Positions 1 through 9,346 of a stretch of 9,346 nt of DNA are shown here, piece after piece. The DNA lies in NCBI GenBank assembly GCA_030628225.1, contig DAOVRJ010000084.1, forward strand, positions 1-9,346. The letters run 5' to 3'. This DNA is from Candidatus Zixiibacteriota bacterium (GTDB lineage Bacteria > SM23-81). Both the position numbers and the translations under genes were made by a program. The notes beneath the pieces were generated by a model. The model searched no databases. It was not told the origin of the DNA and worked only from the letters and a program-made list of their open reading frames with translations. The stretch's first letter is position 1, and every line of letters starts with the position of its first letter.

Positions 1-200
1 ACAAACCGAGAGCTCAATCGTATGCGCACCACATCACCCACCTGAGCGCCTATGGTATTTCCTGCCTCAACAACCATGGTCTTCTGCCCGCCCAGATGAC
101 AGACTCCCCTGGCCGAGCAGCTGTGACAGGCCCCTTTGGCCTCCGTGGAGACCAAGGCCACCCGGTCCCTGATCTCGGTTACCGCGCCCGTTTCCTCCAT
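1..200 (-). CDS. rseC: RseC/MucC family protein, N-terminal part (gene runs off the left edge)
   Basis: The first 66 codons of a gene are visible; the rest lies beyond position 1. The protein begins METGAV-like (M-E-E-T-G-A-V-T-E-I), then has A-C-H-S-C-S-A-R-G-V-C with cysteines at residues 25, 28 and 34. This C-x2-C-x5-C spacing is the same as in E. coli RseC. It continues with V-V-E-A-G-N and G-A-Q-V-G-D-V-V, matching the family pattern of an 'N-x2-GA-x2-GD-x-V' strand before the two membrane helices, which would lie off-window. The ATG at 198-200 is preceded by a GGGAG purine run about 4-5 nt upstream. RseC proteins are inner-membrane proteins linked to the SoxR-reducing (Rsx/Rnf-like) electron-transfer system and, in E. 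coli, to sigma-E control; in many bacteria the gene sits next to rnf genes. Which role applies here cannot be judged. It lies about 260 bp downstream of a TPP riboswitch-terminator on the same strand. Confidence 0.8.
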   Translation of the reverse strand, partial: MEETGAVTEIRDRVALVSTEAKGACHSCSARGVCHLGGQKTMVVEAGNTIGAQVGDVVRIRLSSRF

Positions 201-249
201 CTCTCTCCCAACTCTCTGAACTATCACCAAGGATCGGCTTTTTCTTTTA

Positions 250-302
250 TCGAGTCTCGAATCTCGCTAAACGAGTTTCGAGTTTCGATATTCGAGGTTC
301 GG
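250..302. repeat. Degenerate TCGAG/TTCGA repeat cluster, copy 1
   Basis: The stretch is built from variants of a short word (tcgagtctcg, aatctcg, cgagtttcg, agtttcg, atattcgagg). Bases 250-266 match 424-440 at 16 of 17 positions in the same orientation. No coding potential was recognised. It sits between the rseC start and a palindromic element, and would be in the leader of any transcript entering rseC from upstream. Confidence 0.6.
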
Positions 303-325
303 AAATAAGTCTTGCTAGCATCTCT

Positions 326-350
326 GGATTCCCGCTTGCGCGGGAATGAC
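326..350. repeat. dRS3-like palindromic repeat element
   Basis: Bases 328-347 form a perfect inverted repeat: attcccgc (328-335), a 4-base loop, then gcgggaat (340-347). The pattern ATTCCC-N8-GGGAAT is that of the Neisseria dRS3 element. Similar 'ggattcccgc...gcgggaatgac' palindromes are dispersed in many other bacterial genomes. There is no T-run right after the hairpin on either strand, so I do not call it a terminator. It is probably a dispersed intergenic repeat (REP/MITE-like). Whether it recurs in this genome cannot be seen from one copy. Confidence 0.65.
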
Positions 351-416
351 AAAAAAGACACGGGAATAACATTCCTTGGGAAATTATGTTTGGTTCTTAC
401 GGTTCCCGGGTTTTCT

Positions 417-446
417 ACGAATCTCGAGTCTCGACTCTCGAATCTC
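417..446. repeat. Degenerate TCGAG/TTCGA repeat cluster, copy 2
   Basis: This cluster has the same words as copy 1 (cgaatctcgagtctcg, ctctcgaatctc). Bases 424-440 are a direct repeat of 250-266 with one mismatch. The two copies bracket a 157-bp segment containing the dRS3-like palindrome, which could be the footprint of a small non-autonomous insertion. No transposase or clear target-site duplication was recognised. Confidence 0.55.
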
Positions 447-461
447 TTTATTACGGAGACA

Positions 462-494
462 AACAAAAAGCAAACCCCCACCAGGATTTGCTTT
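462..494 (-). terminator. Intrinsic terminator of the TPP riboswitch
   Basis: Read on the minus strand, AAAGCAAATCC (494-484) pairs with GGGTTTGCTTT (477-467) through a TGGTGG loop. This gives an 11-bp stem with one U-G pair. It runs straight into a T-rich tract (CTTTTTGTTTG). It begins about 10 bases after the 3' strand of the aptamer P1 helix, which is the usual position of the expression platform in a riboswitch working by transcription termination. When thiamine pyrophosphate is bound, transcription towards rseC should stop here. Confidence 0.8.
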
Positions 495-502
495 CCTTAC
501 TA

Positions 503-584
503 CCATCCGTTTCCCTTCACTGGTATAACCCAGATCAGGTTTCAGGGGTATGATCTCAGGCCTCGCAGCCATCCCCAACGGGTA
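503..584 (-). promoter_or_regulatory. TPP riboswitch (THI-box aptamer)
   Basis: The minus strand carries the hallmark blocks of the thiamine-pyrophosphate aptamer in order. The P1 5' strand CCGTT (581-577) is followed by GGGG, then GGCCTGAGA (the CUGAGA pyrimidine-sensor block), then ACCC and CTGAAACCTGATCTGG, then a TTATACCAGTGAAGGGA tail. The P1 3' strand AACGG (511-507) closes the structure. P1 is 5 bp and the CTGG/CCAG helix is intact. An intrinsic terminator follows immediately, so the likely mode is ligand-induced transcription termination. The switch points left, towards rseC. The genes it normally controls (thiC, thiamine transporters and so on) are not in this window. No convincing promoter was identified in the 60-80 bases upstream. 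Confidence 0.92.
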
Positions 585-651
585 CTACTTATTCGATTGC
601 TGATACTGAAGTTTATGTCGAAGCGCGGCCCACTGCATCCCAACCCCACCA

Positions 652-682
652 GGGTTTAGGGAATAGGGTATAGGGGTTAGGG
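652..682 (+). repeat. G-run block (TTAGGG-like), potential G-quadruplex on plus strand
   Basis: Five G-runs (GGG, GGG, GGG, GGGG, GGG) are separated by loops of three or four bases (TTTA, AATA, TATA, TTA), which meets the usual G-quadruplex pattern. Bases 672-683 are a perfect 12-bp inverted complement of 872-883 in the C-run array downstream. The two blocks could therefore pair as the stem of a large hairpin. Confidence 0.6.
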
Positions 683-742
683 AAAAGCAAGAAGACCATG
701 TTCTATCACAGTGAGTTGCATGTTGGGGGGTGGAGATGGGGA

Positions 743-888
743 CACTGACCCCTAATCCCTGTTTTTCCGTGGGTCACTAACCCCTGATCCCTAATCCCTA
801 TCTTTCCGGGTTCACTAACCCCTAACCCCTGATCCCCAATCCCTGTCTTTCCGGGGTCACTAACCCCTAAATCCCTAACCCCTCTCCT
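743..888. repeat. Imperfect tandem array of CACTAACCCCT...TTTCCGGG units
   Basis: There are three units plus a partial fourth: 743-774 (32 bp), 775-812 (38 bp), 813-857 (45 bp) and 858-888. Each starts with cact(a/g)acccct, continues with ccctaat/ccctgatc words, and the three full ones end in a (t)tttccg-g-gt block. Unit length varies because the inner CCCTAA/CCCTGA words differ in number. The G-rich strand is the minus strand, the sense of nrdJ. There, bases 843-819 give GGG-ATT-GGGG-ATCA-GGGG-TTA-GGGG, a strong G-quadruplex pattern. The array starts within a few bases of the nrdJ stop. Confidence 0.75.
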
Positions 889-892
889 TTCA

Positions 893-3172
893 TCAACACC
901 GCGAATAGCCGCAGTGCTTGCAGACAACACACCCATCGGAATGTTCCAGAGTCTCCCCGCAGTCGGGGCAGGCACCAGTACTACCCTCTAACTGAAACCT
1001 CAGGCCGCCCTCGTATCTGTCGGTGTCCTTGAGATACTTCTCGATGGCTCGGCTGATGGCATCCGGACAGGAGAGTATGATCCCACCATCTTGCCAGGAA
1101 GGGGAGGGGCAGCGGATGCCACGCAGCTGCTTAAGGATAGCTTCCAGCTCGATGCCGCTGCGTAGGGCCAGGGAGACCAGCCGGCTAATGGCCTCTGTCT
1201 GAGAAGCGGCACATCCACCTGCCTTGCCCAGTTGAGCGAAGACCTCAAACAGCCCGACAGGGTCCTCGTTGATGGTCACGTACAGGCTGCCGCACCCCGT
1301 TCCGATCTTCTCGGTGGTGCCCCGGAGAACCACCGGCCTGCCCCGGGGCGACCGGGGCTTGGGCGCCTCAGTCCTCTGGGTGACGCCCAGATTCAAGACC
1401 TGCTGCTCACGGCTCTTGTCCCTATAGATGGTCACTCCCTTGCACCCGGACTCATAGGCCAGCTTGTACACCTTGGCCACATCCTCACGAGTGGCCTCAG
1501 TGGCGAAGTTGACCGTTTTAGAGACGGCGTTGTCCGTATATTTCTGAAAGGCGGCCTGCATGCGGATGTGCCACTCCGGCTCCAGGTCGTGAGCCACCAC
1601 GAAGGACTGGCGGATATCCTCGGGCACCGCTTTCATCCCTTTAACAGAGCCCTTGGATGCGATCTTCTTAAACAGAGCCTCATCGTAGAAATCTCGTTCC
1701 CGGGCTATCTGCTCGAAGAGGGGGTTCATCTCCACCAATTTGTCGTCATCCATAACATGGCGCAAAAAGCAGAGGGCGAATAGAGGCTCAACGCCCGACG
1801 AGCAGCCGGCGATGATGCTGATGGTACCGGTGGGAGCGATGGTGGTAGTAGCGGCATTGCGCAGCTTTAAACCGTTGGGCACGTCGTAGATGCTGCCTTG
1901 AAAATTGGGAAAGACACCCCTCTCCTCAGCCAACCGCGCCGACATCTCCTTGGATTCGGCGGAGATAAAAGCCATTACCTCCTCGGCACAGCTGATGGCT
2001 TCCTCGGAATTGTAGGGAATTCCCAGCTTGATGAGCATGTCGGCGAAGCCCATCACCCCCAGGCCGATCTTGCGGTTGGCCTTGGTCATGTTCTCGATCT
2101 GGGAGAGAGGCTGCCGGCTGACGTCGATGACGTTGTCCAAGAAATGGACTGCCACGCGGACCAGAGGTCCCAACTTTTCGTAGTCGATCTCCTTTCCGGA
2201 GACCATCTTGGACAGATTAATGGAGCCTAAGTTACATGATTCATAGGGCAGCAGAGGTTGCTCCCCGCACGGGTTGGTGCTCTCGATCTCTCCTGCTTTG
2301 GGTGTGGGATTGCTCTGATTGATCCGGTCCAGAAAAATGATCCCCGGCTCACCATTTCGCCAGGCCAGGTCCACGATGGTGTTGAAGACCGCCTTGGCGT
2401 CCAGCTTCTTGACCACCTGCCGGCTGTGGGGGTTGACCAGCTCGTACTCCTCCTCCCGGGCCAGAGCCTGCATGAACTTCTCGGTGAGGCCAACGGAGAT
2501 GTTGAAATTGGAGAGAACCCCCTCATCCTTTTTGCAGCGAATGAAATCCAGGACATCCGGATGGTCCACGCGCAGCACGGCCATGTTTGCCCCTCTTCGG
2601 GTGCCCCCCTGTTTGACGGCCTCCGTGGCAGCGTCGAAGACCTTCATGAAGGACAAAGGACCGCTGGAAATCCCCTTGGTGGACTGGACCACGTCGTTCC
2701 GGGGACGGATGCGGGAGAAGGAAAAGCCTGTGCCCCCGCCGCTCTGGTGGATGAGAGCGGTATTCTTGACGCCCTCGAAGATGCTCTCCATGGAATCCTC
2801 GATGGGCAACACAAAACAAGCTGAGAGCTGCTGAAGTCTGGTCCCGGCGTTCATCAGCGTGGGCGAGTTAGGCAGGAATTCCAGACGGGTCATCACCCCA
2901 CAGAACTCCTCCTCCGTCCTTTTGACCTCTTCCTTGTTGCGGTACTCGGCATCCACCGAGGCCACGTTCCGGGCCACCCGGCGGAACATCTCCTCAGGGG
3001 TCTCGATGACCTTCCCGGTGTGGTCTTTGCGCAGATATCTTCTCTGCAGGACCGTGATGGCATTGGGAGTCAATTGCACCTTACCATGTGAGGCCAGACC
3101 GGAGGCGCTTTTCTGCTTCGGGCGGGATGTCGCGCCGGCAGCACTCTCCTGGTTTTGTGACGTGGGGGGCAT
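893..3172 (-). CDS. nrdJ: Adenosylcobalamin-dependent (class II) ribonucleoside-diphosphate reductase
   Basis: This enzyme reduces ribonucleotides to deoxyribonucleotides in the cytoplasm, using coenzyme B12 to make the thiyl radical, and needs no oxygen. In the 759-residue product the catalytic set is complete. N-P-C-G-E carries Asn300, the thiyl Cys302 and Glu304. The redox pair is Cys119 (in S-A-C-F-V-L-P) and Cys313 (in [10 protein letters not shown]), and the P-T-G-T phosphate loop is near 447. The C-terminal B12-RNR domain (T-G-C-G-S-L-Y-V) follows. The protein ends in a cysteine-rich tail (Cys735, 738, 748, 751, 754, 759; CxxC...CxxCGYSRC), probably a zinc ribbon and reducing tail. No ATP-cone was recognised at the N terminus. 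I chose the ATG at 3172 because AGGAG lies 8-9 nt upstream. An in-frame ATG at 3196 overlaps the stop of the previous gene but has no ribosome site. It is the last gene of the packed series. Confidence 0.95.
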
Positions 3173-3180
3173 GGCAGTCT

Positions 3181-3185
3181 CTCCT
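3181..3185 (-). promoter_or_regulatory. Ribosome binding site deciding the nrdJ start
   Basis: AGGAG, followed by AGACTGCC and ATG (3172-3170), sits inside the short stretch between the metallophosphoesterase stop and the internal Met. It supports a start eight codons downstream of the longest possible frame. Confidence 0.65.
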
Positions 3186-3195
3186 GTTGACAGCA

Positions 3196-4479
3196 TCAGT
3201 GTTTTGGTTTAAAGTTCGTTGTCCGGGGATATTCTATGGCCTGTATTTCCCGTGATTCCACCGTTTGGAGATGTTCCAGCCGGCCATCAGAACTCACAAC
3301 GGCAAGCCGGTACTGGCAAGCAAAGCCGGGTTGGATGATTCTATCGGTATATTTATATGTCATCTGCCGGGAAACACCTTCCTGACCGACAAGCTCTATG
3401 TTAGTCGTATAACGGGCGATTTCATTCCAACAGCCGGTCTCTTTCTGTCTGCGCTCAAGGACAAATCCACGATGCGCCCTCTCCCTCTCTGTTATCCATT
3501 CCAGGACCACAGCTCCTGCTTCCTGACGGGCAGAGAAAGAGGAGAGCGTGATCCACGGCGATGCATCCCAGCTGTATACGATGTCGTCATAATCATAGAT
3601 GCCATCGTGGGCATCGCGATAGACACGGAACATGACATCGTCGAGGCTATCGCCGGCCACATCTACGATCAGGAAGGTGCTCGGCGCTCCGGTGTCCCCC
3701 ACTCCTCGACAGTGTCCGGCATCCAGTTGCCAGACGCCGTCGATCTTAATGGCGCTGTAATTGTGCGTATGCCCGCAGAAGTAGGCCAAAACACCCTCAT
3801 CCCTTAGAAGTTCCCAGAAACGATCCCGACGGGCGGGATATTTATCCAGGCTGTCACCTATATGGCGCATCCGTCCGTTATTGGCATCGGGCTGCGGATA
3901 TGCCGGCTCGTGGCCGAAGACGAAGATGTGCTCCCTGGCCGTCGCGGCCAGATCCTCCGCCAGCCACTCGTAGAGGGCATCCACGACATCTCCATCGGCA
4001 GCTGTATCGCCGATGCCATCGTAATACTGGTTCAGCACCACGAAGTGGGCGTTCTGGTGATCGAAGGAGTAGGTCGTCTCCCGGCAACCCGGCGGGCCGG
4101 CGTTCACAACGCCAGGAAGATCCTCTCCACCGGCGTTATAGCTGCGCAGCCATTCCATATCGCCGGGCGTCTCGGCCTCGTGGTTGCCCACCACGGGATA
4201 CCAGAGATAATCATCTCCCAGGATCTGCTCGATGGTCCACCTCACCTGACCCGGCGGATCCACATCCCCCGGGCTGATCATGAAAGCGCCGGGGCCCGTC
4301 GCGGCGATGGCCTCACAGACCCCTCGAAAATACCGGGAATCGTCATAAACACCCGTGCCGGAGTACCCCCGCATATCTACTGCAACCGAAAAGCTGAAGG
4401 GCTCCGCCAGGGCAAATTTAGCAACCGGCAACAGAAACATGACGCTGATGACAAAAAAGCTCTTTTTGATCTTGTGCAC
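3196..4479 (-). CDS. Secreted calcineurin-like metallophosphoesterase with C-terminal Fn3-like domain
   Basis: The 427-aa protein has an N-terminal signal peptide (basic MHKIKK, hydrophobic core, A-L-A cut near residue 25), so it is exported. Residues about 30-255 carry the metallophosphoesterase motifs: D35 in V-A-V-D-M-R, G71-D72, G-N-H-E at 98-101, G-H-E at 189-191 and G-H-T-H at 236-239. These bind a two-metal centre that hydrolyses phosphoesters; the substrate is unknown. The first motif is normally D-x-H, but here it is D-x-R (Arg37), so one metal ligand may be missing. Residues about 311-412 (L-S-S-F-S-A..., V-V-L-E-W, G-F-V-L-E-R) resemble the Fn3-like modules at the ends of secreted proteins in FCB-group bacteria. 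The start is GTG with AGGG 7 nt upstream. It overlaps the longest nrdJ frame by 1 nt, suggesting co-transcription. An acid phosphatase or nucleotidase are alternatives. Confidence 0.85.
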
Positions 4480-8203: not shown

Positions 8204-9073
8204 CTAAGCTTCATGCGCCTTAGTAATATATTCACCAGTTTCTTCGAACTTTATCTCTATCTTGTTAAATAAGGTCTGCCCTTCTCGTCGCAGTCTTTCC
8301 AACGCCATTTGACAATACTCAGAATCTATCTCAACACCAATGCTATTCCTATCAGCTTTCATTGCAGCGAGCATAGTTGTCCCTGTTCCAAGAAAAGGAT
8401 CAAGAACTGTATCTCCCCAGAAAGAAAACATTCTAACAAGCCTATTAGCTAACTTAAGGGGAAAGGGAGCAGGATGATTTTTTGTTGAGGTCCCAGGAAT
8501 ATTCCAAATTTGTTGAAACCATGCGGCATAGTCTTTTTTACCAATCATACTTAACTTGCGCTGTTCCATAGTTGGCTTTCGGTAACCGCCCGGTTTACGT
8601 TGCATAAGAATGAATTCAATGTCATTTTTAATGATAGCATTAGGTTCATAGGGTTTGCCGAAAAACTTGCTACCATTATTCACTTCATATGTTGCTTTGG
8701 CAATCTTATACCAAATAATGGGATTCAAATTATCAAAGCCAATCTTTCTGCACGATACAGCTATATCCGAGTGCAGAGGAACCACAACATGTCTGCCAAA
8801 TTTCCTTCGAGAGAGACATACATCGCCAACTACACAGACTAATCTACCGCCCGGAACTAAAATACGATAGCAGTGTCGCCAAACCTTTGCGAGTTCATCT
8901 ACAAAAAGCTCATAATCCTCAATATGTCCCAATTGCTGAGGATGTTCATGATACTTTTTAAGTATCCAATATGGTGGTGAGGTGATAACCAGGTGAATGC
9001 TTTCATCTGGAATGAAAGAGAGATTTCGTGCATCACCCTGAATTAAACGATGAGTAGCCTGTTGTCTAGTCAT
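8204..9073 (-). CDS. Beta-class site-specific DNA methyltransferase (probably N4-cytosine)
   Basis: The 289-aa enzyme transfers a methyl group from S-adenosylmethionine to the amino group of a base in DNA. Motif IV, T-S-P-P-Y-W, is at residues 31-36. The AdoMet-binding motif I, D-P-F-L-G-T-G-T-T, is at 225-233. The motif X region (H-P-A-P-F-P-x-x-L-A-N-R-L-V) is just before it at 200-213. The order IV then X-I defines the beta class. S-P-P-Y, rather than D-P-P-Y, favours N4-methylcytosine over N6-methyladenine, though this rule is not absolute. The target site cannot be read. The ATG overlaps the stop of the preceding gene (ATGA, 9073-9070), indicating translational coupling. Its base composition is clearly more AT-rich than everything to the left, suggesting recent transfer. 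Length is ordinary for a complete enzyme. Confidence 0.92.
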   Translation of the reverse strand: MTRQQATHRLIQGDARNLSFIPDESIHLVITSPPYWILKKYHEHPQQLGHIEDYELFVDELAKVWRHCYRILVPGGRLVCVVGDVCLSRRKFGRHVVVPLHSDIAVSCRKIGFDNLNPIIWYKIAKATYEVNNGSKFFGKPYEPNAIIKNDIEFILMQRKPGGYRKPTMEQRKLSMIGKKDYAAWFQQIWNIPGTSTKNHPAPFPLKLANRLVRMFSFWGDTVLDPFLGTGTTMLAAMKADRNSIGVEIDSEYCQMALERLRREGQTLFNKIEIKFEETGEYITKAHEA

Positions 9074-9346
9074 TTTCTTGTCACCCCAAGAGTTGAGAGA
9101 AGTAACCTGACGGCATTTTCAATAGTTTCTTTTGTTTCCGATGCAAAGACAACGCCATCTATATTATCCGAACGGAGACGACTTTGGATGTTTGTATGTT
9201 CCTCAATGAAAGGATAGTAGATAACAGTCCCAAATTTACTTTCTGGAAAAGCGGCTTTCAATTTAGCAGCTTTATTAACGATTTCATCGCATCGTTTATG
9301 AATATCCCTTCTAGCTTCAATTCTTTTTACATCTATACCGTATTCA
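9070..9346 (-). CDS. C-terminal fragment of an unrecognised protein, probably the cognate restriction endonuclease
   Basis: A frame enters from the right edge and runs 91 codons to a TGA at 9072-9070. No start is needed inside the window; an internal TTG at 9261 is not a convincing start. The first residues read E-Y-G-I-D-V-K-R-I-E-A-R-R-D-I-H. The centre has V-I-Y-Y-P-F-I-E-E-H and N-I-D-G-V-V-F-A-S, and the end is helical. Its 4-bp ATGA overlap with the methyltransferase and its shared low GC point to a restriction-modification operon with this as the nuclease. That is inference from gene order. I see no diagnostic nuclease motif in this fragment, since the catalytic part would lie off-window. 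A specificity or accessory protein is possible. Confidence 0.6.
   Translation of the reverse strand, partial: EYGIDVKRIEARRDIHKRCDEIVNKAAKLKAAFPESKFGTVIYYPFIEEHTNIQSRLRSDNIDGVVFASETKETIENAVRLLLSTLGVTRK

Follow-up and report, generated by a model that had tools for sequence, protein, structure and literature searches.

TPP riboswitches have been described as regulators of genes for thiamine synthesis and transport (Sun et al. 2013, PMC3766115), and the main text of that paper does not mention rseC. Within the aptamer, conservation extends to the CUGAGA of J3-2, to G78 and to the J5-4 residue C77, which lies near the pyrophosphate and is highly conserved (PMC3764141). RseC has been connected with SoxR reduction and with Rnf (PMC11729352, PMC9124969), and a separate rseC transcript is reported for Clostridium ljungdahlii (PMC9124969). 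In Salmonella, rseC has been reported to take part in thiamine synthesis (Beck et al. 1997, as cited in PMC9124969).

The window analysed here, 9,346 nucleotides in length, is the entire contig C116 of source genome G000 (Candidatus Zixiibacteriota bacterium; 2.34 Mb in 306 contigs), and it carries a TPP riboswitch for which the next gene on the strand is rseC (Table 1). The feature is real, and its target is unusual and not conserved. The Rfam match covers model positions 1-105 (E 1.7e-10) and exceeds the curated cut-off of 54.3 bits, and no second TPP match occurs in the assembly; the range of 460-584 given to aptamer plus terminator in the sequence-only reading does cover both. As in other RF00059 elements with an intrinsic terminator, there is a full aptamer model, a core of CUGAGA and ACCUGAUC (together with G78), a terminator directly after P1, and a candidate antiterminator fold. 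The differences are that rseC stands next, in place of a thiamine synthesis or transport gene, and that a U stands in J5-4 where E. coli thiM has C77. Judged by these features, the element is a genuine terminator-type TPP riboswitch of an ordinary class, and would be expected to bind TPP.

Table 1. Features of the window around the TPP riboswitch.
Feature	Positions	Strand	Evidence
rseC (RseC_MucC), 5' part	3..200	-	PF04246 47.5 bits; 83% identical to SM23_81 protein; cut by contig end, remainder G000:C280:1-219
Spacer of dispersed repeats, terminator to rseC	201..446	.	44 further matches in own genome; short arrays
Intrinsic terminator of riboswitch	465..496	-	Pattern scan; folds; kept in SM23_81; T-run on to ~460
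TPP riboswitch aptamer (RF00059)	495..586	-	Full-length model match 61.6 bits; 83% identical block in SM23_81
Tandem repeat arrays between nrdJ and riboswitch	657..891	.	45-nt and 7-nt units
nrdJ, B12-dependent ribonucleotide reductase	893..3196	-	NF006417 1206.7 bits; upstream neighbour kept in SM23_81, 83% protein identity

The substitution at the C77 position merits some caution. A C is found there in 36 of 38 parsed TPP elements, and the U of the window recurs in the panel elements L185 (parsed) and L182 (by eye), both of which precede thiC. Because the same U occurs in leaders before thiC, it is rare but evidently tolerated, and its use as proof of decay was dropped for the same reason; nonetheless, a U at so strongly conserved a position could weaken TPP binding. 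The aptamer and terminator had been called intact, a description that is borne out by the full-length model match and by the terminator, but not at this residue.

The terminator was found by pattern scan, with 14 stem pairs, and it also appears in computed folds. The fold energy of the leader (z -1.8) is not striking alone, and it is the covariance model and the conservation that carry the case. In ligand-free sequential folding of the leaders from the window and from the relative SM23_81, P1 has a probability of 0.0 at the stage where the terminator has emerged up to its loop and lacks only its 3' arm, and at nt 112-116 an alternative fold that excludes P1 is 4.5-7 kcal/mol better in both, by computation only. 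An expression platform, in the sense of a terminator plus a fold alternative to P1, is thus present by computation, and the alternative fold would fit both an antiterminator and termination promoted by TPP. Under such a scheme, high TPP would close the aptamer, allow the terminator to form and end transcripts before rseC, while at low TPP the alternative pairing would exclude P1, and read-through across the spacer would permit RseC to be made. Against this stands the folding of the finished transcript, in which the terminator hairpin is stable whether P1 forms or not. A search of both strands of 150-920 for sigma-70-like promoters found none, which is weak evidence given that the host's promoters are of unknown type.

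Conservation was assessed against one relative from the same family, candidate division Zixibacteria bacterium SM23_81 (G001; LJUY01000017; contig C94). A protein search of contigs with the NrdJ C-terminus returned SM23_81 as the sole close relative (82%), all others being at or below 60%, and two other genomes of the phylum gave no TPP match. A 125-nt block that starts at P1 and closes with the T-run is 83% identical between the window and SM23_81, and the flanks on both sides are unalignable; for comparison, nrdJ has 83% identity at the protein level, 78% at the DNA level and 55% at fourfold-degenerate sites. This confinement of conservation to aptamer and terminator argues that the switch was functional for much of the divergence, and in this genome it may still be so.

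Compared at the same junction, as the sequence-only reading had suggested, the two genomes share the switch directly behind nrdJ (69.2 bits in SM23_81, with C at the C77 position) and differ in the next gene. In SM23_81 this gene begins 376 nt on and belongs to the AIR-synthase superfamily; it comes nearest to HypE (93.7 bits) and ThiL (80.3 bits), with both scores below cut-off. The window's genome contains no ortholog of it (best 29% identity), none of the prolyl-oligopeptidase-like gene that follows it, and none of the DUF2769 gene that stands ahead of rseC in SM23_81, where switch and rseC are on separate contigs. Orthologs of the AIR-synthase-like gene elsewhere lie beside a ThiI-like and an IscU-like gene in two genomes (G002, G003) and overlap thiL in a third (G048). 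Because these orthologs adjoin sulfur and cofactor genes, a thiamine-related role of the gene is conceivable, and the arrangement of SM23_81 is perhaps older than that of the window, a direction of exchange proposed from two genomes only. The overlap in G048 (L048, contig C163), where the ortholog overlaps the start of thiL (frames 432-1541 and 1486-2553), suggests that the two genes form an operon and that this uncharacterised family may be linked to thiamine.

One reading of the shared junction would make nrdJ itself the conserved partner, with the element working at the 3' end of the nrdJ transcript or being released as a short RNA that acts elsewhere. Two genera do share the position behind nrdJ despite their different downstream genes, and the conserved block stops at the T-run. 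However, shared ancestry can explain one common neighbour in two related genomes, and the unalignable flanks on the nrdJ side reveal no conserved promoter or target-pairing segment. We know of no bacterial TPP element that acts in this manner, and the reading is regarded as very improbable.

On the downstream side, rseC begins at an ATG at 200, as placed by homology to the rseC of SM23_81 (83% identity), leaving a gap of about 260 nt after the T-run, so the earlier placement of an RseC-family gene next on the strand and some 260 bp away was correct. The PF04246 cut-off of 24.4 bits is exceeded by the 76-residue window fragment, and full-length SM23_81 RseC scores 115.7 bits. Two RseC pieces exist in the assembly, covering model positions 1-60 at C116:9-182 and 81-129 at C280:4-147. 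Contig C280 opens with the final 72 residues of rseC (69% identity to SM23_81 over 55 residues), immediately adjoined by a convergent gene of 1314 residues that is heparinase II/III-like, and in SM23_81 the ortholog of this gene (62% identity) likewise stands after rseC, in the same orientation. Since SM23_81 has the same order, C116 and C280 most likely adjoin, and rseC is by synteny the last gene of its own unit, with neither an rnf/apbE operon nor thiamine genes after it. A gene for a QueT-family transporter was noted further along C280 (L039, 5244-5744), near the end of that contig.

This gene order bears on two earlier proposals. The first, an rnf/apbE electron-transfer operon under thiamine control, is not seen: no rnf, apbE or rpoE gene was found beside rseC, whose neighbours are nrdJ upstream and the convergent heparinase-like gene. 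The gene resembles those of Salmonella, E. coli and C. ljungdahlii in its RseC_MucC family and Cys-rich N-terminus, and differs in having no rpoE or rnf neighbour found and in being preceded by a TPP riboswitch. The proposed connection between RseC and thiamine survives in another form, as the Salmonella report (cited in PMC9124969) is more direct than the argument from ApbE; it makes TPP control of rseC plausible and proves nothing here. The second proposal, of thiamine genes further left in one operon behind rseC, could draw on the fact that the contig ends inside rseC, so that the window alone cannot speak against it. The remainder of rseC on C280 is, however, followed by the convergent gene as in SM23_81, and thiC, thiE and thiL are on other contigs. 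The proposal was rejected on the strength of that convergent gene, and hardly any credence is left to it.

The DNA between switch and rseC had been described as containing nothing that looks coding. It is non-coding, but it is not plain, being built of dispersed repeats: a search of the genome with window 640-201 gave its further matches nearly all inside 446-201, at 73-97% identity and mostly under 100 bases (longest, 196 bases at 82%), with two of the best at contig ends (C65, C69). Dozens of intergenic sites in G000 carry short dispersed repeats of the CGAATCTCGA and inverted TTCCCGC/GCGGGAA type. Repeat DNA around the switch is a likely substrate for rearrangement. Because the spacer consists of dispersed repeats, and SM23_81 has another gene there that is without ortholog here, repeat-driven rearrangement behind the switch is the best supported of the earlier options.

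The same repeats invite the objection that the contig was misjoined inside them, in which case rseC would not lie behind the switch in the real chromosome. The many matches of the spacer, including those at contig ends, and the separate contigs of switch and rseC in SM23_81 would fit such an artefact. The matches are partial, however, with no exact long repeats seen of the sort that leads an assembler astray, and synteny with SM23_81 is kept on both sides, by nrdJ ahead of the switch and by the heparinase-like gene beyond rseC; a misjoin is accordingly judged improbable.

A weightier alternative, and the main rival, is that the switch is an orphan relic. Here the target would have been lost by deletion or a move, the terminator would at most end nrdJ transcripts, and rseC would run from its own promoter in the repeat spacer. 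The differing downstream genes, the repeat-built spacer and the U at the C77 position are all in keeping with this, as is the missing DUF2769 gene, which deletion or rearrangement would also give. On the other hand, aptamer and terminator score well with all other core motifs held, the same U occurs in two thiC leaders, and no promoter-like site was found in the spacer, although this last point is weak. We regard a relic as a real possibility, if a doubtful one.

The explanation that we tentatively place first, at not quite even chances, is that the switch was kept behind nrdJ while its downstream gene was exchanged through rearrangement in repeat-rich intergenic DNA, an AIR-synthase/HypE/ThiL-superfamily gene standing there in SM23_81 and a solitary rseC in the window, and that rseC has thereby come under TPP-dependent termination. 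Exchange is favoured by the different next gene of SM23_81 without ortholog here and by the spacer of dispersed repeats. Control in cis is favoured by an aptamer above the Rfam cut-off with its terminator, by the conservation of this switch against nrdJ fourfold sites at 55%, by the P1-excluding fold, by the failure to find a sigma-70-like promoter in 150-920, by a distance within the panel range and by the thiamine role reported for rseC in Salmonella. Against it are that switch and rseC adjoin in one genome only, that the spacer could carry an unrecognised promoter, that J5-4 has a U, that the finished terminator is stable either way, and that thiC and thiE are without TPP switches in this lineage.

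The distance in question is about 295 nt from aptamer to rseC; spacer length was dropped as an argument against control, since panel leaders reach 487 nt (before thiG). In the control panel, 48 of 50 TPP elements have a thiamine synthesis, transporter or TonB-receptor type gene next (types assigned by inspection, with Pfam checks on nine). The two exceptions are SM23_81 (L020) and an element before a pilin-like gene in G007 (L009). The thiamine synthesis or transport gene that marks a typical TPP regulon is next to the switch in neither the window nor SM23_81, and none of the 13 other panel genomes having both features has a TPP element adjoining rseC. In the window's genome and its relatives thiC, thiE and thiL are present, with no thiamine pyrophosphokinase found. 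The thiC gene follows genes for a thiamine-binding protein (PF01910) and a HAD-like protein, and thiE adjoins a cysteine-desulfurase-like gene. As the thiC and thiE stretches gave no RNA-family match in the window's genome or SM23_81, the TPP switch is, on this evidence, without cis control of thiC and thiE in the lineage.

A stronger version, in which rseC is a true riboswitch target and RseC would rise as TPP falls in support of a thiamine-synthesis step that depends on redox chemistry or Fe-S, is considered unlikely. Were it correct, the unexplained thiamine phenotype of rseC in Salmonella would gain evidence at the level of regulation. Regulation of rseC would in any event represent a new kind of TPP-riboswitch target, tying RseC, the biochemical role of which is unclear, to thiamine supply and matching the 1997 Salmonella genetics. 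If rseC is unregulated, the locus would instead illustrate a riboswitch that stays with its upstream neighbour while its target is swapped among repeats, and would counsel caution in assigning targets from adjacency alone.

Two minor observations may be recorded. The G007 element (C31:150188-150081, minus strand) lies 61 nt from its pilin-like gene, which encodes an N-terminal methylation motif. At the far end of the window (8204-9345), a gene resembling type II DNA methyltransferases overlaps a short same-strand reading frame, which is cut off downstream and has no family match, and the two could form a restriction-modification unit.
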